A DNA stretch of 64,000 bases from Roseivirga seohaensis. GTDB taxonomy: Bacteria > Bacteroidota > Bacteroidia > Cytophagales > Cyclobacteriaceae. The notes under the pieces were generated by a model. The model was not told the origin of the DNA and did not search any database. It saw only the letters and a program-made list of their open reading frames with translations. Position 1 is the first letter of the stretch. Every line of letters begins with the position of its first letter. Positions 24,333-47,307 of this stretch are shown here, in pieces. The translations under genes and the position numbers were made by a program. The stretch is from positions 372,001-436,000 of the forward strand of contig NZ_LRPB01000023.1 of the NCBI RefSeq assembly GCF_001592945.1, in the 5' to 3' direction.

Positions 24333-25055
24333 ATGAAAACTTTAGTAATAGACGATTCAAGACTTGCCAGAAACGAATTAAAAAGGCTACTCAAAGAGTT
24401 TGACAATGTTCAGGTTGTTGGAGAAGCGGCAAGTGTTGATGAAGCAATTGAAAAAATCACCGAACTAAAGCCCGACTTAATTTTCTTGGATATTCAAATG
24501 CCAGGCAAAACAGGTTTTGATTTACTTGAGGAGCTGGAAATTGTGCCAGAGGTAATTTTTTCTACGGCTTATGATGAATATGCGCTCAAAGCTTTTGAAT
24601 ACAATGCACTCGATTATTTGGTAAAGCCCGTTCAGAAGGATAGGTTGGCGGGAGCCATTTCTAAGGTGATTGAAAAAGTAGAGAAAAAAGAAAGAGATAA
24701 AGAAAGTGGAAGCGATAAGCTCACCATCCACGATCAGGTTTTTGTAAAAGATGGCGAAAAATGCTGGTTTGTTCAGTTGGCTGATATTCGTCTTTTTGAG
24801 GTAAGTGGGAATTATACCACCGTGTATTTCGACAAATCGAAACCAATGATTACCCGAACGCTAAACTATTTAGAATCAAGGCTAGACGAGAAAACCTTCT
24901 TTAGGGCCAATCGTCAACAAATCATCAATTTAAAATGGATCGAAAGAATTGAACCTTGGTTTAGTGGTAGCTTAAGAATATATATGAAAGGGGGCGAAGA
25001 AATCGATGTTTCGCGTAGGCAAACCCTTAAGTTCAAAGATATTATGAGTTTCTAG
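24333..25055 (+). CDS. LytTR-family response regulator (pair 1)
   Basis: 240 residues: a receiver domain with D7/D8 and phosphoacceptor D53 (FLDIQMPGKTG), and a C-terminal LytTR DNA-binding domain (about residues 140-240) with FFRANRQQIINLKWIERIEPW. Such regulators bind direct repeats upstream of target promoters. It is 19 bp downstream of its kinase and followed by a strong terminator at 25077-25114. Targets are not known. Confidence 0.93.
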   Translation: MKTLVIDDSRLARNELKRLLKEFDNVQVVGEAASVDEAIEKITELKPDLIFLDIQMPGKTGFDLLEELEIVPEVIFSTAYDEYALKAFEYNALDYLVKPVQKDRLAGAISKVIEKVEKKERDKESGSDKLTIHDQVFVKDGEKCWFVQLADIRLFEVSGNYTTVYFDKSKPMITRTLNYLESRLDEKTFFRANRQQIINLKWIERIEPWFSGSLRIYMKGGEEIDVSRRQTLKFKDIMSF

Positions 25056-28601: not shown

Positions 28602-29228
28602 GTGAAAAAAGAAAAAGTTAGAATCGGCTTAAGGCGCGAAGCCTTTAATAAAATGGAGCAGATGCATCCGCATCAAGTTATGCTCTATGTGGCCTTGATT
28701 GGTAGTTCTGTCCTTTTCCTCTTTTTAGTGGTTGCTTTTACGGCTAGCAGACCGATTCATAGTGATTTCCTTAAAATTGAATTTCCTAAATTCTTTGTGG
28801 TAAGTACGGTATTAATGCTTCTTTCGAGTTTTTCGGTGTCCAAAATTATTCCGGCTTATGAAAAGGACGAGCTGGAAAAACTGAAAAAATGGCTGGGCAT
28901 TACCTTTTTACTAGGTTTGGCTTTTGCCACTTCTCAGTTTTTAGGCTGGCGCGAACTTCAAGAAAGTCAGATTCTTTTTAGCGGAGCACGCTCTGGTGCT
29001 TATCTCTATGTCATTACAGGTTTACACGTGGTACATCTAGTGGCCATTTTACTTTATGCAGTTCGGTTACTCGTCAAATGCAATAAGGTTTCGCTGGATG
29101 CTGTGCAAAGCTTGATTTACTGCACCAATCCTTACCAAAAAATCAGGTTCAAAATGCTAACAGACTTTTGGCATTTTGTAGATGTGCTTTGGTTGTTGCT
29201 CTTCTTTTATTTGCTGTTTAGCTTTTAA
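28602..29228 (+). CDS. Orphan heme-copper oxidase subunit III-like membrane protein
   Basis: 208 residues with a GTG start at 28602. Five membrane helices; conserved marks of cytochrome c oxidase subunit III are HPHQVMLYVALIGSS in helix 1, GWRELQESQ, VITGLHVVHLV and DFWHFVDVLWLLLFF at the end. Subunit III carries no redox centre and supports proton uptake and stability of subunit I. No subunit I or II or assembly gene is in the window, so this is a stand-alone copy, either serving an oxidase elsewhere or with an independent role. It starts 132 bp from mfd, divergently. Confidence 0.78.
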   Translation: MKKEKVRIGLRREAFNKMEQMHPHQVMLYVALIGSSVLFLFLVVAFTASRPIHSDFLKIEFPKFFVVSTVLMLLSSFSVSKIIPAYEKDELEKLKKWLGITFLLGLAFATSQFLGWRELQESQILFSGARSGAYLYVITGLHVVHLVAILLYAVRLLVKCNKVSLDAVQSLIYCTNPYQKIRFKMLTDFWHFVDVLWLLLFFYLLFSF

Positions 29229-29294: not shown

Positions 29295-30530
29295 TTAGTT
29301 AAAATTAATCTGCTTAATGTTTTGGTATTTCACGTAAGTTGGCTTTCCGCTTGAATTGAAAACAAGAACGCCTTCATTTTCATCGCTTACATCTCTACCC
29401 GAACCAAGGGTTAATTCTTTACCGCTTTTCAACATAATTCTTGCGTTATCGTAATTTCTTGGGCTGAAGGATTTGATGTTTTCAATTGGAATAAAGTATT
29501 CAATGTCATCGTCTTCCCCTTGAATAATTTCGAAGTTGTATTCTTCATCTAGGTCGAAAATGATTTCGCCAGAAAGGGTTTCTCCGTTGGTAGTTTCTAC
29601 GGTTCCTGAGATTTTCTTCACTTCGAAATCAGAATATGCTTTTCCAGAATTTGGTGCATTTGTGAATTCAACACGCTTAAATTCTTTCCATGGAATATCT
29701 ACTCTACCGAAATCGGTACTCACGATAATCCCACCATTCGAATTGTCTACATCATTCGAACCTCTCAAATAAAGCTCTCTTCCTGATTTTGTCACCACAT
29801 TACTACCAGAACGATCTCTTTCTATGGACTTAATATTGCTGAATTCGATTTTCATGTCGCCATCGCGGGTATCGCCATCGAGTACATTTGTGGTATATCT
29901 TTCATCATGGTCCCACTGAACAAACCCAGTGATTGAACCTCCGTAATATTCAACAGTTCCGTAGATAGGGTCACCAATTTTGTTTGCGAGCTTACTTGGT
30001 GTATCCATAAATTCTATGGTTTCAATTCTGCTCCAGTTGAATTTCATGCTTCCCAATTCTTGATCTAGAATGGTGATTGTTCCACCCATATCGTCTGATC
30101 CGTCTTTAACAAAAACTCTATCCCCATTGCGAAGTGTTAACTCTACTTCGGAACGTCTGTTAATATCTATTCTAGAAATGTTGCCAAATTCAGTTCTGAA
30201 TTCGTGCGTAGTTTCCCAGCTGTTATTGCCCCAACTTATGCTAAAGTTTCCCCAGCTGCTGTTTCTCCTTCTTTGTTCGTCCCTTAAGTCGTTTCTTTCT
30301 TCTCTTGTCAGGTGACGGTAATTGTCGTTTTCTTCCTTATTTCCATTAAAATGGTCTGTCCAATAGCCTTCTCCACGATCGCCCCATCGCATTTGACCTG
30401 TATAACTGTTGCCATCAATGGTGGTGAGTTTTCCGTAGATGAATCCTTCATCTTGTGCATTGGCCGAAAGAAATGAAGCCGTAATGAGCCCGAGAAAAAT
30501 GGCAGATTTTGAAATAATTGATTTAATCAT
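29295..30530 (-). CDS. Secreted three-repeat protein, paralogue A
   Basis: 411 residues; signal peptide about residues 1-25 (SAIFLGLITASFLSANAQ). I recognise no named domain. Three copies of a module of about 100-130 residues cover the mature protein, each with a G-x-V...G-x-I-x-W-D opening, an I-x-F-x-x-IKSI strand, and LKSGREL.L.GS-x-DV-x-x-x-N-x-GV, ending V-x-I-x-W-x-x-F-x-x-VEF. Examples: YGKLTTIDGNSYTGQMRWG, YGTVEYYGGSITGFVQWD, ISGTVETTNGETLSGEIIFD. It is homologous throughout to the gene at 32563-33867. It is the last gene of the block with the LytS/LytTR pair 2, separated from the regulator by 223 bp, and could be its target. Likely all-beta and periplasmic or secreted. Confidence 0.75.
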   Translation of the reverse strand: MIKSIISKSAIFLGLITASFLSANAQDEGFIYGKLTTIDGNSYTGQMRWGDRGEGYWTDHFNGNKEENDNYRHLTREERNDLRDEQRRRNSSWGNFSISWGNNSWETTHEFRTEFGNISRIDINRRSEVELTLRNGDRVFVKDGSDDMGGTITILDQELGSMKFNWSRIETIEFMDTPSKLANKIGDPIYGTVEYYGGSITGFVQWDHDERYTTNVLDGDTRDGDMKIEFSNIKSIERDRSGSNVVTKSGRELYLRGSNDVDNSNGGIIVSTDFGRVDIPWKEFKRVEFTNAPNSGKAYSDFEVKKISGTVETTNGETLSGEIIFDLDEEYNFEIIQGEDDDIEYFIPIENIKSFSPRNYDNARIMLKSGKELTLGSGRDVSDENEGVLVFNSSGKPTYVKYQNIKQINFN

Positions 30531-30753
30531 GGTTGTGTTGTTTGAGTTTTATTCTTTTTGACGAATCAAAGATGCAGAATGACATCTTGCCAAAAAATAC
30601 AGATTGGCTCTATCTAGTTATTCTTTAACCGAAACGGGAGGAGAACTTACTGAACTGGAAATGATGGTTGAACTCTCCAAAAGCTTTGATTCTAGATCCT
30701 GAGAAAATGATAGCCATTAGGGAATTATGACACCAACTTTTGGAGAGGTGTTT

Positions 30754-31515
30754 TTAGTTATCTAACCACTGTTTGAAAAGCGGTGTCTTTTCTGAACTCA
30801 CCACAATGTCTTCATCAATTTCTGGGCTAAGGCTCAATTTTACGCGGCCTTTGAAGTAAGGGTGAATGTCGCTAACGGCATCGAAATGCACCAAAAATTT
30901 ACGGTTTACCCTAAAGAACTGCTTTGGGTTTAGCATTTGATCTACTTCTTCTAGGGTATTATCGATAATGTACTTTTGCTTTTCAAAAGTGACGATATAG
31001 GTAAGCTTATCGTGGGTATAGAAATAGGCGATTTTTTCTGTAGGAATGGCGCGAATCCGCTGGCCAATTTTGGTGAGGAATCGTGATTTATATTCTTTGT
31101 TCTGTTCGTTAATTAGCGCTTTGATTTGGCTAAGGTCAAATGCTGGAGAAGTGGAAATCGCGGATTGCTCTTCAATTTTTTCTAGCGCATTGGCTAACTT
31201 TTCGCGCTGAATGGGTTTGAGCAAGTAATCCACACTATTTACCTCAAATGCTTTAATCGCATACTGATTGTAAGCTGTTGTAAAGATTACTTTACATTTA
31301 GGTTTGTGTTGTTCAAAAATTTCAAAGCTAGTTCCGTCAAGTAGCTGAATATCGCTGACAATGAAGTTGGGATGCTCATTATTTTCGAACCACAGCAAAC
31401 CAGCTTCTACTGACCTGATGGTGGCTACGATTTCCAGTTCCGGTTTGAGTTCTTTTAGCAGTTCAATTAACCTTTCTGAGGCCAGCCTTTCGTCTTCAAT
31501 AATCAGTACTTTCAT
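30754..31515 (-). CDS. LytTR-family response regulator (pair 2)
   Basis: 253 residues: receiver domain with phosphoacceptor D55 (FIVSDIQLLDGTSF), then LytTR DNA-binding domain from about residue 150 (RAIPTEKIAYFYTHDKLTYIV, FFRVNRKFLVHFDAV). It starts 17 bp after its kinase gene, both within the minus-strand block of paralogues A and B. The likely target is the 223-bp gap upstream of paralogue A or the region in front of paralogue B; neither has been shown. Confidence 0.92.
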   Translation of the reverse strand: MKVLIIEDERLASERLIELLKELKPELEIVATIRSVEAGLLWFENNEHPNFIVSDIQLLDGTSFEIFEQHKPKCKVIFTTAYNQYAIKAFEVNSVDYLLKPIQREKLANALEKIEEQSAISTSPAFDLSQIKALINEQNKEYKSRFLTKIGQRIRAIPTEKIAYFYTHDKLTYIVTFEKQKYIIDNTLEEVDQMLNPKQFFRVNRKFLVHFDAVSDIHPYFKGRVKLSLSPEIDEDIVVSSEKTPLFKQWLDN

Positions 31516-31532
31516 TCGCTTAGCTTTTAAGG

Positions 31533-32552
31533 TTAAATTTCAGAAATATTGATGAGAGGAACACGAACGATGAACGAGTTTGGGTTCTTGATTACCTCAA
31601 CGGGCTTTGTAGTAAAGTAGGAATACCTACGCTTAATATTTTCTAAACCAGTTTGTCCACTGTTCGGCAATTCAACTTTCTTTTCTTGCAGATTATTTTT
31701 TACTGAGATATAGCCGTTCTGACTTTCAACATGAATTTTTAGTGGACGTATTTCCGAAACGGTATTGTGCTTAATGGCATTCTCAATGAGCATTTGCAGG
31801 GTGAGCGGAGGCAAGTATAAAGCTTCGTCTTTTTTATCTATGGCCATGCTCAGCTGAATGGTGTCTTCAAACCGAATTTCTAACAAATACATATAAGCGC
31901 TAATAAAACTGAGCTCCTCTTTCAACTCCACCAATTCTTCGGAACTGCTTTGAAGAATAATGCGATAAACTTCCGCAAACTTTTCTAGATAAGCCTGTGA
32001 TTGCTTTTGGTCTTTGGAAATGAGCGAAGAAAGAATGTTGAGGTTGTTGAAAAGAAAATGCGGATCTAAGTGGTTTTTTAAAGCATTAAGCTCTGCCTTG
32101 ATCGATTCTTTCTGAAATTCTTCCGAAGCCAATTGAGCATTTTTCCAGCGTTTCAAAAACTGAATTCCAAAATTGATTGAAATGATGGGCAACAGAATCA
32201 AAATGGATAATGCGTTTATGGTCGCAATTTGACTTCCAACAGGTGGATCTTCTGTGAGGGTAATCTTGAACAGAAAATAGCTCAAGTTGATGATGACTAA
32301 AGAGACTAATACGCCTATACCCAATTGGGAGTAAAAACGCTTATTGCCGTGGGTAAGCCAAGGCAGTTTTCGGTCTAATGAAATTGTTAAGGCGCGGTTG
32401 GCCAGGAGAATTAAGAGTAAAACCGCAACAATAAGCCCTGCTGTCAGGTAAAGTTCGCGGGGTGCTGAAGTGGCGTAAAGAAAGACAAAAACGCCCGCCA
32501 CCAAACTGATGGCAATACTGTTTTGGATGATTTGACTACGACTGAACTTCAA
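31533..32552 (-). CDS. Sensor histidine kinase, LytS type (pair 2)
   Basis: 339 residues. Four membrane helices in the first 135 residues, then the His_kinase domain with phosphoacceptor H165 (NHLDPHFLFNNLNILSSLI, a variant of the usual SQINPHF) and ATP-binding motif MLIENAIKHNTV. Starts 10 bp after paralogue B and 17 bp before its regulator, so paralogue B, this kinase and the regulator are very probably one transcript. Confidence 0.92.
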   Translation of the reverse strand: MKFSRSQIIQNSIAISLVAGVFVFLYATSAPRELYLTAGLIVAVLLLILLANRALTISLDRKLPWLTHGNKRFYSQLGIGVLVSLVIINLSYFLFKITLTEDPPVGSQIATINALSILILLPIISINFGIQFLKRWKNAQLASEEFQKESIKAELNALKNHLDPHFLFNNLNILSSLISKDQKQSQAYLEKFAEVYRIILQSSSEELVELKEELSFISAYMYLLEIRFEDTIQLSMAIDKKDEALYLPPLTLQMLIENAIKHNTVSEIRPLKIHVESQNGYISVKNNLQEKKVELPNSGQTGLENIKRRYSYFTTKPVEVIKNPNSFIVRVPLINISEI

Positions 32553-32562
32553 AGTGTTTTAC

Positions 32563-33867
32563 TCAATCAAAGATGATTTCGTCAATTTGCGACCAACGTA
32601 TGTAGGTCGGTTTGGCGTCTTTCGAAGTAAATATAAGCACTCCATCATTGTCTTCTGACACATCGCGACTTTCACCTAATAGAAGCTCCTTGCCATTTCT
32701 AAGAATAATTAATGAGTAACTATAATTTTTAGGAATGATGTTTTTGATATTTCGGAAGGGGATTTTATAAACTACTCGGTCATCTTGGCCATCTAAAGTT
32801 TCATATTCCCAAGCCTCGTCTAAGTCATAGGCAATGAGGCCGCTTATTTTTTCACCATCTCTGTTAATTACAGTTCCTCTCAAACCTGTTGAGGATGGGA
32901 ATTCACTATAAGACGGCCCTTGGTTGTTCGATTCAATAATTTCCAGTTCTTCGAAATCGCGCCAAGGAACCACGATTTGACCAATTTCCTTATCGTTGAT
33001 TAAAACGCCAGCGTTTTCGCTGTTCACATCGTTAGAGCCTGTTAAGTAGAATTCTCGTCCTGATTTAAGTGTTACATCTACCCCATTTCGGTTTTTTACA
33101 ATTTTCGTAATCGACCTGAATGGAATGTTTTTGTCACCATCACGGTCTTTACCATTCAGAATATCTTCTAAAAAACGCTCATTGTGAGTGTTTTTGCTCG
33201 TGCCTTGGTCCCACTGAATGGTTCCTTCAAAAGTACCTCTTCTGCCTGCTTTTACTTTTCCGTAAATGGCTTCACCAAAGAGCGATTTCGGTATTTTGCC
33301 ACTTTCCAAAAACTCCACTTTTTCTATTCTCGCCCAATCTAGCTTTACAATACCTAATTCTTCATCGTAAACGCTAACGCTTGCGCCTACGTCTTCAAAA
33401 CCATTGCCACTGACTTCTACAATTACACCGTTTTTTAACGCTACTTGCGCCCGGCTTCTGCCCGTAGGTTTAATGCTTTTGATGTCGCCAAAACGGGTAT
33501 CGAATTGGTGATTGGTACGGCTGTATTTATCGTCCCAAATGCTCAGTATACCAAGGTCAATGCCTAGCCATGAACTTCCGCCTTCTTGATCTGAAATCTG
33601 TTGTATTTCTTTTTTTGAAAGGAATTTTAAAAAATCGCTTGAGGTTTTTTGTGCATTAAAAAGGTCGACCCAGTACACTTCATCACCTCCCCAGCGCAAA
33701 GCACCTTGGTATTTATCGCCATTAATGGTGGTTACTTTTCCGTACAGGTAAATGTTCTTTTCCTGCGATTTCGCTTCTGAAACAATAATCAACAAGCCTA
33801 CCGCAATGCCAATGCACAGCATCAGCTTTCTCACCTTTTTCTCAATGTTATGTTGCAGACTACCCAT
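32563..33867 (-). CDS. Secreted three-repeat protein, paralogue B
   Basis: 434 residues from the ATG at 33867; the longer frame to 33954 lacks support, and this start puts a signal segment (LMLCIGIAVGLLIIVSEAKSQ) near the N-terminus. Same architecture as paralogue A: three modules starting YGKVTTINGDKYQGALRWG, YGKVKAGRRGTFEGTIQWD and RGTVINRDGEKISGLIAYD. Closest similarity is in the LKSGREFYLTGSNDV block of module 2. No family recognised. It overlaps nothing but precedes the LytS kinase by 10 bp and follows the amidohydrolase by 99 bp. A sensor ligand, envelope or matrix protein are all possible; none is shown. Confidence 0.75.
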   Translation of the reverse strand: MGSLQHNIEKKVRKLMLCIGIAVGLLIIVSEAKSQEKNIYLYGKVTTINGDKYQGALRWGGDEVYWVDLFNAQKTSSDFLKFLSKKEIQQISDQEGGSSWLGIDLGILSIWDDKYSRTNHQFDTRFGDIKSIKPTGRSRAQVALKNGVIVEVSGNGFEDVGASVSVYDEELGIVKLDWARIEKVEFLESGKIPKSLFGEAIYGKVKAGRRGTFEGTIQWDQGTSKNTHNERFLEDILNGKDRDGDKNIPFRSITKIVKNRNGVDVTLKSGREFYLTGSNDVNSENAGVLINDKEIGQIVVPWRDFEELEIIESNNQGPSYSEFPSSTGLRGTVINRDGEKISGLIAYDLDEAWEYETLDGQDDRVVYKIPFRNIKNIIPKNYSYSLIILRNGKELLLGESRDVSEDNDGVLIFTSKDAKPTYIRWSQIDEIIFD

Positions 33868-33966
33868 GCAACAAACGTAATTTGAATTGTTGGTAGAAAA
33901 AACGTTTCTAGACTGTACTAGCATATTCAAACCCTGAATCGGGAAAAGCACCACTTCAAATAATTT

Positions 33967-35052
33967 CTATTTCGGAAAAGCAGAAGCGTCAATACCCGGT
34001 ACCAAACGAATTGCATTCTTGTAATAGATCTTTTTTAGCACTTCATCTGAGAGCCCCAAACCGTACATTTTCCAATAGGCGTGGTACTTTTTGTAATAAG
34101 GAAAGTATTCATCGTTCGTTTCCAGTACTCTAAAATAAGTGGCGTACTCCTCAGGGTTGTAAGCATCTTTTCCAAACAGCACGCGGTCTTGGTATTTGGT
34201 GAGGAAGTTATTTGCCATACGTGGTTGGCGACCCAACTCAGCGATTACTGCTCCGATTTCTACATTCATATTTGGCATTTCGTCCAAGAGTTTTCCCAAA
34301 TGGGCTAAGTCGTTGCCATACCAGCCTAAGTGCGCGGCAATAAATTGGGTATTCTTATGCTTTTTGAAAACGTTGTGTTGTTCTTGAATTAGGGTTTCCC
34401 AAGGCACGGGATTATCATCTTCTCTTTTTCTATTCGGATGTGTTTTCAACTCCAACCATCTTTCATTTTCAGCATCAAAAGGTGCCCAAAATTGTTTTGG
34501 ATCTGCAGTGTGGATCAGTACTGGAATACCTAATTCACCACATTTTGCCCAAATCGGGTCAAGCCTTGGGTCGTCCACTGCTACGCGATTTCCATCAGTA
34601 TCTTTTACGGAGAAACCTAAGCTTTTGAAAATTTTAAGCCCTCGTGCACCTTGGTTATAATCCCTTTCTAGTTGGGCTGCGGCCCTTTCTCCCCAGCCTT
34701 CTTCGCCTACATTAATAAAGTTTACATTGGCGAAAACAATAAAGCGTTTGGGTTGATTAGCTTTTATATTTGCGGAGGCGTCTGCAATTGATTTGCCGCT
34801 ACCACCACTTAGATTTACCATAAGCCCCATGTTGATTCCATCCATTTCCGCAGCAAGTGCATTTAAATCTTGTTGACCCATTCGCCTCTGATGACTGTGG
34901 ATATCGATAAAAGGAAATTTCGATCGGGTGATCGGGTGTTCAGGAACAACGAGTGTTGATGGCGGATTATATCCTTCAAAATCCATCGTTTGGGCGGTAA
35001 TTGTGGTTCCTAAAAATAGACCAATGGAGCAGGCAATCAATTTGATTTTCAT
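33967..35052 (-). CDS. Secreted amidohydrolase-family metal hydrolase
   Basis: 361 residues with a signal peptide (residues 1-20, ending TTITAQ). The rest resembles the amidohydrolase_2 family, a TIM-barrel metal hydrolase: metal-binding HxH in DIHSHQRR, a second His pair region PVLIHTADPKQFW, and FIAAHLGWYGNDL. Such enzymes act on cyclic amides, lactones or decarboxylate aromatic acids; here the export signal is unusual and the substrate is unknown. It is 99 bp upstream of paralogue B on the same strand and might be cotranscribed. Confidence 0.82.
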   Translation of the reverse strand: MKIKLIACSIGLFLGTTITAQTMDFEGYNPPSTLVVPEHPITRSKFPFIDIHSHQRRMGQQDLNALAAEMDGINMGLMVNLSGGSGKSIADASANIKANQPKRFIVFANVNFINVGEEGWGERAAAQLERDYNQGARGLKIFKSLGFSVKDTDGNRVAVDDPRLDPIWAKCGELGIPVLIHTADPKQFWAPFDAENERWLELKTHPNRKREDDNPVPWETLIQEQHNVFKKHKNTQFIAAHLGWYGNDLAHLGKLLDEMPNMNVEIGAVIAELGRQPRMANNFLTKYQDRVLFGKDAYNPEEYATYFRVLETNDEYFPYYKKYHAYWKMYGLGLSDEVLKKIYYKNAIRLVPGIDASAFPK

Positions 35053-46560: not shown

Positions 46561-47307
46561 TCAATACTTCAACACCTCTTTCAACTTACTGTGCCCACTG
46601 CGGCTTACAGGCAATTGAGCGCCTGTTTTTAGGCTGAGTAAATAAGAGTCCTTTTCGTAAAGCTCCAGCTTCTCGATGTGCTTAATGGAGACGATGTGAG
46701 AACGATGTACACGAATAAAGTTACCAGAAGGAAGATTATCTTCCAGGTGCTTCATACGCATCAATTTCAAAAATTTACCTTGGTCTGAATGAATGGCTAC
46801 GTAATCATCTTGCGCCTCGAAATGCGCAATTTGGTCTAAGCCTAGAATATGGATTTTGTTTCCAGTTTTCACCACCAATCGATCAATACCTTCCGAAAGC
46901 TCTTCGCGTTTTTCTGTTAAAGTTTCAATTTCTTTTTGGGCAGAAGTTTTGGTTTGAATTTTATCGATCGCTTTTTGCACCGCTCCTTTAAAGCGCTCTT
47001 CGGCATAAGGCTTTAGTAAATAATCGGTGGCATTCAGTTCAAAAGCTTTGATAGCATACTGATCGAAAGCGGTGCTGAAGATGACCACTGGAGGGTTTTC
47101 AATTAACTCTAGCATTTCAAAACCCGTGATTTTGGGCATTTGAATGTCCAGAAAAAGCAAATCTGGTTCGTGTTCCTGAATAGCCTTTAAACCCTGAAAA
47201 CCATCACCGCATTCTGCAATCACTTCCACTTGAGCAAAGTTTTGTAAATAAGCCTTGATAATATCGCGGGCTAATTTTTCATCGTCAACTATTATGGCTT
47301 TGATCAT
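46561..47307 (-). CDS. LytTR-family response regulator (pair 3)
   Basis: 248 residues: receiver with phosphoacceptor D54 (LLFLDIQMPKITG) and LytTR domain (NFIRVHRSHIVSIKHIEKLE). Overlaps its kinase gene by 4 bp. The closest similarity in the window is to the receivers of pairs 1 and 2 (FLDIQMP, ATDYLLKP), so they share ancestry. Confidence 0.93.
   Translation of the reverse strand: MIKAIIVDDEKLARDIIKAYLQNFAQVEVIAECGDGFQGLKAIQEHEPDLLFLDIQMPKITGFEMLELIENPPVVIFSTAFDQYAIKAFELNATDYLLKPYAEERFKGAVQKAIDKIQTKTSAQKEIETLTEKREELSEGIDRLVVKTGNKIHILGLDQIAHFEAQDDYVAIHSDQGKFLKLMRMKHLEDNLPSGNFIRVHRSHIVSIKHIEKLELYEKDSYLLSLKTGAQLPVSRSGHSKLKEVLKY

Follow-up and report, generated by a model that had tools for sequence, protein, structure and literature searches.

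Introduction

In the LiaFSR system of Bacillus subtilis, the membrane protein LiaF is a specific inhibitor of the LiaRS pair, and the system induces its own locus together with an output (PMC3543457). The LytTR Regulatory Systems (LRS) HdrRM and BrsRM are described as two-protein systems, without a kinase, in which a regulator is paired with a membrane inhibitor, and their LytTR sites activate when located just upstream of the -35 element (PMC6193735). LytTR sites are made up of two repeats of 9-11 nt, separated by a spacer of 11-13 nt (PMC4847170). Statements on published work here and below reflect excerpts of the papers cited. Here, we analyze a locus of Roseivirga seohaensis in which a sensor kinase (K) and a LytTR-type response regulator (R) are flanked by two paralogous exported proteins, B and A. 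The locus lies in a 64,000-nt stretch of DNA (positions 372,001 to 436,000 of contig NZ_LRPB01000023.1, assembly GCF_001592945.1), hereafter called the window. Comparison of its sequences with those of its relatives suggests, with a probability that we would put at about 0.55, that it encodes an autoregulated three-component envelope system.

An initial reading of the window from its letters alone (the sequence-only reading) had described this locus as a possible undescribed system, and this stands within limited literature searches, including one for Roseivirga with two-component systems judged by title and the start of the abstract. Nothing pairing LytTR with Cytophagales or Marinoscillum was found in a search to which most subscription journals and all bioRxiv preprints lay outside, and a query combining LytTR, Bacteroidetes, histidine kinase and accessory protein returned only a genome report.

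Two paralogous three-module proteins flank a kinase and a LytTR regulator

The four genes are on the minus strand of the window, in the order B-K-R-A:

32563..33834, minus strand: B, exported or membrane-held three-module paralogue adjoining the kinase, with a proposed GTG start (the sequence-only reading had placed an ATG start at 33867)
31533..32552, minus strand: K, sensor kinase with a His_kinase domain, four hydrophobic stretches and short outside loops, 10 bp after B
30754..31515, minus strand: R, response regulator with a receiver and a LytTR DNA-binding domain, 17 bp after K
29295..30530, minus strand: A, exported three-module paralogue with an ordinary signal peptide by eye

Gene order and domain content agree with the original description of paralogues flanking a kinase/LytTR pair: K matches His_kinase (PF06580, 77.4 bits) and R matches Response_reg (52.7 bits) and LytTR (73.7 bits), all above the Pfam cut-off. 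The kinase had been called LytS. It is indeed a kinase, but LytS proper bears a named LytS sensor domain, and PF06580 is the only Pfam domain of K above cut-off, with no named sensor domain among them. Its four hydrophobic stretches suggest four membrane helices.

A and B are identical at 162 of 427 positions (38%) in a near full-length alignment (E 2e-100), and B as a query finds only itself and A in its own genome, with no third family member at E <= 1. The claim that the two share a full-length fold with three modules each was confirmed by profile comparison, in which the modules of each protein proved homologous (modules 1 and 2, 99.0%, E 2e-18; modules 2 and 3, 99.6%, E 1e-24; modules 1 and 3, 98.5%, E 4e-15). 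No Pfam or NCBIfam family matched A or B above cut-off. The Pfam matches below cut-off were YcxB (E 0.0059), bPH_6, Myosin_N, FERM_C, ISP1_C and LytTR (weak, E 0.062 against A), while neither ImpE nor a LiaF-type family appeared for either protein at E <= 1. A sequence search of the PDB, made with A and not with B, gave nothing at E <= 1.

The same operator geometry precedes B-K-R and A

Alignment of the upstream regions of the 17 Roseivirga genomes with the locus revealed one conserved block per promoter. In all 17 genomes and at both promoters, a LytTR-type direct repeat with a 21-bp period, about two helical turns, is found some 59 bp ahead of a -7 box of the sigma-A type, for which TAnnTTTG is the consensus in a Flavobacterium (PMC9723704). 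The elements of the window are as follows:

33954..33959, minus strand: B operator half-site 1, TTGAAG, weak
33933..33938, minus strand: B operator half-site 2, TTCAGG, preceded by CCCGA, 21 bp from half-site 1
33912..33917, minus strand: possible third B half-site, TACAGT, another 21 bp downstream, seen only by inspection
33872..33879, minus strand: B promoter -7 box, TACGTTTG, 59 bp from half-site 2
30649..30654, minus strand: A operator half-site 1, TTCAGT
30628..30633, minus strand: A operator half-site 2, TTCGGT, preceded by CCCGT, 21 bp from half-site 1
30567..30574, minus strand: A promoter -7 box, CATCTTTG, 59 bp from half-site 2

Across the genus, the A operator consists of two TTCRGT halves 15 bp apart, the second preceded by CCCGW. 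It is matched exactly at both halves in 15/17 genomes, L065 and L075 each being off in one half, and the -7 box at 59 bp is strict in 16 and reads GATATTTG in the seventeenth. The B operator has an invariant second half (CCCGATTC in 17/17), a weak first half, and a -7 box at a spacing of 59 bp in 15 genomes and 60 bp in two. This shared geometry makes it very likely that A and B are under common control, and lends good support to the earlier suggestion that both are regulated. It also bears on the 5′ end of B: the gene itself stands, but the ATG at 33867 coincides with the transcription start predicted from its -7 box, and the sister genomes mostly show an ATG at the position of the window's GTG (33834), so that the coding sequence probably spans 32563-33834.

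A strict composite pattern had 36 matches in 19 genomes of the genus, 33 of them at A or B, compared to two for the backward control, and the only two sites in the R. seohaensis genome were the A and B operators. The three matches elsewhere (in G003, G005 and G011) are thus about at control level; two lie within long open frames and one (L162, G003:C2:493455-493526, seen in G003 only and at a chance-level rate) is just upstream of an open frame resembling an extracytoplasmic function (ECF) sigma factor by eye. Further R targets were sought with relaxed patterns and rejected, with no excess over controls either for two mismatches in the R. seohaensis genome with the gap fixed at 55 (57 sites vs. 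71 in the backward control) or for bare TTCRGT-N15-TTCRGT over the 19 genomes (160 vs. 201 matches). At strict stringency, the targets visible from sequence are therefore B-K-R and A; degenerate targets may be missed, because B's own first half-site is poor.

Outside Roseivirga the operator mostly occurs with the kinase

With B as query, a match was found in 33 of 147 relatives. Two copies are present in 17/19 Roseivirga genomes, the two without them being 84% and 80% complete, and all 17 (the window and 16 others) have the order B-K-R-A. Elsewhere in the taxonomic order we found B-K-R-A, B-K-R with A elsewhere or not found, or a lone A-type gene. A scan of named genomes yielded 92 relatives, of which 79 loci were kept. 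Designating any gene of the A/B family as F, the arrangements F-K-R or F-K-R-F occur in Roseivirga, Fulvivirga, Marinoscillum, Chryseotalea, Splendidivirga and other Cytophagales, and F without a close K or R in the same stretch in Marinifilum, Labilibaculum, Ancylomarina and assemblies labelled Calditrichia, Acidobacteriota and Zixiibacteriota.

We scored the 350 bp upstream of F genes at these 79 loci for half-sites, CCCG and -7 box combined (maximum 22), leaving out two partial genes and one with <120 bases upstream; some rows are near-copies of one another. The control, 654 other upstream regions of the same loci, reached a maximum of 16, in eight cases. Scores of at least 17 were obtained for 29/31 K-adjacent genes, 26/27 genes downstream of K-R and 8/46 genes filed as solo, and for 22/24, 18/19 and 7/45, respectively, without Roseivirga, the genus from which the motif was derived. 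The mean score peaked at a period of 21 and a gap of 59 in both linked sets and was flat for solo genes; the B-type set was also high at gap 61, since some of its rows have 60.

Three of the eight solo genes with an operator were misfiled and are in fact beside K-R (L078, L092, L121). The five that are truly unlinked (L076, L083, L087, L095, L136) are all in genomes with a K orthologue, and four of them group with A in the tree described below, L136 being a long branch placed elsewhere. In a search for K in 26 genomes with solo loci, the best kinase scored 267-333 bits in these five and in the genome of L100, and <=190 bits in the other 20, where no operator was found (all scores <=15); many of the genomes tested are drafts, and the absence of K from them is not certain. 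The sequence-only reading had proposed that finding the paralogues unlinked in relatives would refute it, and this holds in part. Such unlinked genes do exist, in genomes with a K orthologue as well as in genomes where none was found, but five of the former have kept the operator and those of the 20 genomes tested of the latter kind show none.

The K-adjacent B genes, a label assigned by that very adjacency, form one group of 34 rows (Shimodaira-Hasegawa-like approximate likelihood ratio test, SH-aLRT, 99) in a quickly built tree of 103 rows. The A group (43 rows, SH-aLRT 98) includes nine solo genes and one single-copy locus. By both B and A, the nearest named kin of the window are R. ehrenbergii and R. 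echinicomitans. Genes of an Ekhidna group nest within the A group, with no operator, and no K orthologue was found in the five genomes tested; they look like a natural case of joint loss of operator and kinase. Four of the six single-copy F-K-R loci (L046, L054, L055, L056) score 17-20, L054 only with poor half-sites, and self-regulation may for this reason predate the A/B split. An A-type gene can also be lost while B-K-R persists, as seen from a broken remnant (two short matches, internal stop) downstream of an intact B-K-R at L042:7934-8230 (G027:C109:79934-80229). At L120, in a record titled Rickettsiales bacterium, both genes group with Marinoscillum, and the record is probably mislabelled or a mixed bin.

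A possible resemblance of the predicted module fold to the barrels of ImpE-family proteins

The structural model of B has a mean predicted local distance difference test score (pLDDT) of 90.3 and a predicted template modelling score (pTM) of 0.86; module 2 of A modelled alone reached 95.7 and 0.88, respectively. Foldseek gave no PDB match at E 0.001, its best for the module being HsiE1 (3.6e-3). HsiE1 (residues 156-286) also topped a second structural comparison (Z 7.8, root-mean-square deviation 2.4, 93 of 107 residues aligned), ahead of VPA1032 (Z 6.5, 92 residues), the LytTR domain of AgrA (Z 4.8, 61 residues) and an Sm-like protein (Z 3.6). Identity to HsiE1 and VPA1032 in the structural alignments is 8-11%, and Z values below 8 may mean no more than a common arrangement, but the two best structures belong to one family, ImpE. 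Among solved folds, those nearest to the modelled module would be the C-terminal barrels of type VI secretion proteins of the ImpE family, a resemblance that is suggestive only. The sequence-only reading had asked whether the module is a beta-propeller or SH3-like barrel; the prediction does give a confident fold, but no propeller and no plain SH3 barrel heads the lists of matches, although either fold may still apply. In HsiE1, a peptide is bound in a groove that begins at the C-terminal barrel (PMC4239648), and since it is this barrel that the module resembles, we would guess, by analogy, at a peptide-like ligand.

A helix motif distinguishes most B proteins from A

With the Ala-Gln site as reference, a G-x3-small motif (G at -15, small residue at -11) is present in 25/33 B proteins, 0/29 A proteins and 0/28 solo proteins; a further three A and 12 solo proteins could not be anchored. 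G-x3-small is a helix-packing motif. On the side of the kinase, a P-x3-Q sequence in the loop between helices 3 and 4 of K is kept in 35/35 rows by eye, and a P-x3-Q-like expression had no match in 12 other kinases. The two together suggest that the N-terminal helix of B may pack on K. The earlier idea that one of the paralogues is sensed is supported indirectly: as judged by sequence, it is the B type that stays beside K and mostly has a helix motif absent from the A-type and solo proteins.

Neighboring genes

Just past A, on the opposite strand (28602-29228, plus), is a gene for a cytochrome c oxidase subunit III-like protein (PF00510, E 2e-8). Upstream of B (33967-35052, minus) lies an exported amidohydrolase-like gene by eye. 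Nine loci have a member of a family about 366 residues long, which in L086 at least occupies the equivalent position. The window has two more LytTR domains, at 24759-25046 (plus) and 46570-46857 (minus). In five Fulvivirga-type loci (L078, L079, L081, L082, L103), a second regulator and two-kinase cluster is found just past A on the opposite strand, at about 8.3-12.3 kb.

Discussion

In the system that we propose, K would be a membrane kinase that has no sensor domain of its own outside the membrane, and B, anchored in the inner membrane via its N-terminal helix, would be its extracytoplasmic partner. The ImpE-like barrel modules of B would read the signal and K would phosphorylate R, which would then act on the LytTR direct repeats before B-K-R and A to activate both from the same position, the activation of B-K-R constituting a feedback. 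A would have the same fold without the anchor motif and be a soluble envelope output, either a working protein or a buffer competing for the ligand of B. From the sequence evidence, we consider it somewhat probable that B is the partner of K, and give about the same credit to a role for A as soluble output or buffer.

Several observations weigh against this proposal. Topology and signal peptides were assigned from hydropathy and by eye, the binding of R to the operators is a prediction in a genome that encodes 23 LytTR domains, and half-site 1 of B in the window is poor. L149 is a K-adjacent gene without an operator (score 13), L100 scores 14 even though its genome has K, L106 is weak at both of its genes (16 and 15), and L058 and L059, both single-copy loci, reach 13 and 15. 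Eight of the 33 B proteins lack the G-x3-small motif. None of the six single-copy F-K-R loci belongs to the B clade, and by eye no G-x3-small motif is visible at the N-termini of L054 and L055; the motif therefore cannot be a general need of K.

The alternative that fares best, although we think it unlikely, is that K senses alone in the membrane, A and B being merely effectors made when R is active, with B in the operon by history. One operator common to both promoters would fit this explanation, as would the existence of A/B relatives without K and the conserved short outside loop of K itself. It leaves out of account, however, that the B type is a single clade always beside K in 34 rows, even if labelled by adjacency, whereas the A type unlinks, and that the helix motif is found in B alone.

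A little less likely is that A and B are accessory parts of MacB-type tripartite exporters, the kinase loop setting their amount only. In the Marinifilaceae inspected (L131, L137, L144), F follows a permease, an ABC (ATP-binding cassette) ATPase, a second permease and a small gene, and the neighbors at L131 match HlyD, MacB/FtsX and ABC_tran in Pfam. The small gene (L131:6585-6899, 105 residues, no Pfam match) recurs in 14 loci. Five Cytophagales loci of the Ekhidna group have the same families in common: upstream is a YCII gene, identified as such in L099, and downstream are MacB permeases, numbering two in L099, L101 and L115. A MacB permease also adjoins F in one of the two Calditrichia loci. 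On the other hand, no exporter gene adjoins the Roseivirga locus by eye (26-37 kb of the window), and the neighbors of the remaining solo genes look unrelated. Since relatives without K-R exist, some of them beside MacB-type exporters, these contexts suggest that a family protein can work without this regulator.

We find it improbable that B inhibits K in the manner of LiaF and R represses, so that the levels of A and B are kept at a set point by the loop. LiaFSR does provide a precedent for an accessory inhibitor, and a self-limiting loop would suit a regulon consisting of a sensor and its twin, but the repeats are well upstream of the -7 box, a usual place for an activator, and LRS sites just upstream of the -35 activate (PMC6193735). 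Lastly, use of the operators by another LytTR regulator of the genome, in which 23 LytTR domains are encoded, is very improbable, given that K-R has one of the two operators on either side in 17 Roseivirga genomes and that the operator tracks the K orthologue over the 26 genomes tested, with one exception.

If more F protein is all that the system visibly puts out, then the F proteins themselves do the work. More tentatively, and with less confidence than in the proposal itself, the locus may be a private loop whose only targets are its own sensor and a soluble twin, in which duplication of an ImpE-like envelope protein gave rise to a membrane-held kinase partner, B, and an unanchored effector and decoy, A, keeping the family matched to an envelope signal. 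The regulon proposed here can nearly be written in full, as two promoters per genome, and a single reporter would thus suffice to hunt for the signal. A family without a curated Pfam or NCBIfam model, present in Bacteroidota and in assemblies labelled Acidobacteriota, Calditrichia and Zixiibacteriota, now has a confident structural model. A free-standing envelope protein seems to have been recruited to serve as the outer half of a kinase lacking a sensor domain, a question that extends to many LytTR-paired kinases of the Bacteroidota.

The regulator of LiaFSR belongs to a different class from the LytTR type. What the Roseivirga locus shares with LiaFSR is that accessory protein, kinase and regulator are encoded together, with self-induction plus an output (PMC3543457). 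It differs in having as accessory protein a beta-barrel protein, B, that looks unrelated, together with a regulator of the LytTR type and a paralogue of B as output. The LRS have in common with it a LytTR regulator, a membrane partner and self-regulation through upstream direct repeats (PMC6193735), but here a kinase and a receiver domain are present. The YpdA/YpdB-like LytS/LytTR systems resemble it in having a kinase, a LytTR response regulator and two repeats (PMC4847170), whereas K has no sensor domain above the Pfam cut-off and the target is the flanking pair of exported genes. As for the ImpE family, the modelled fold of the module may resemble the barrel of HsiE1 and VPA1032, but A and B have no ImpE match in Pfam, carry three barrels in tandem, are exported and show no tetratricopeptide repeat (TPR) domain.

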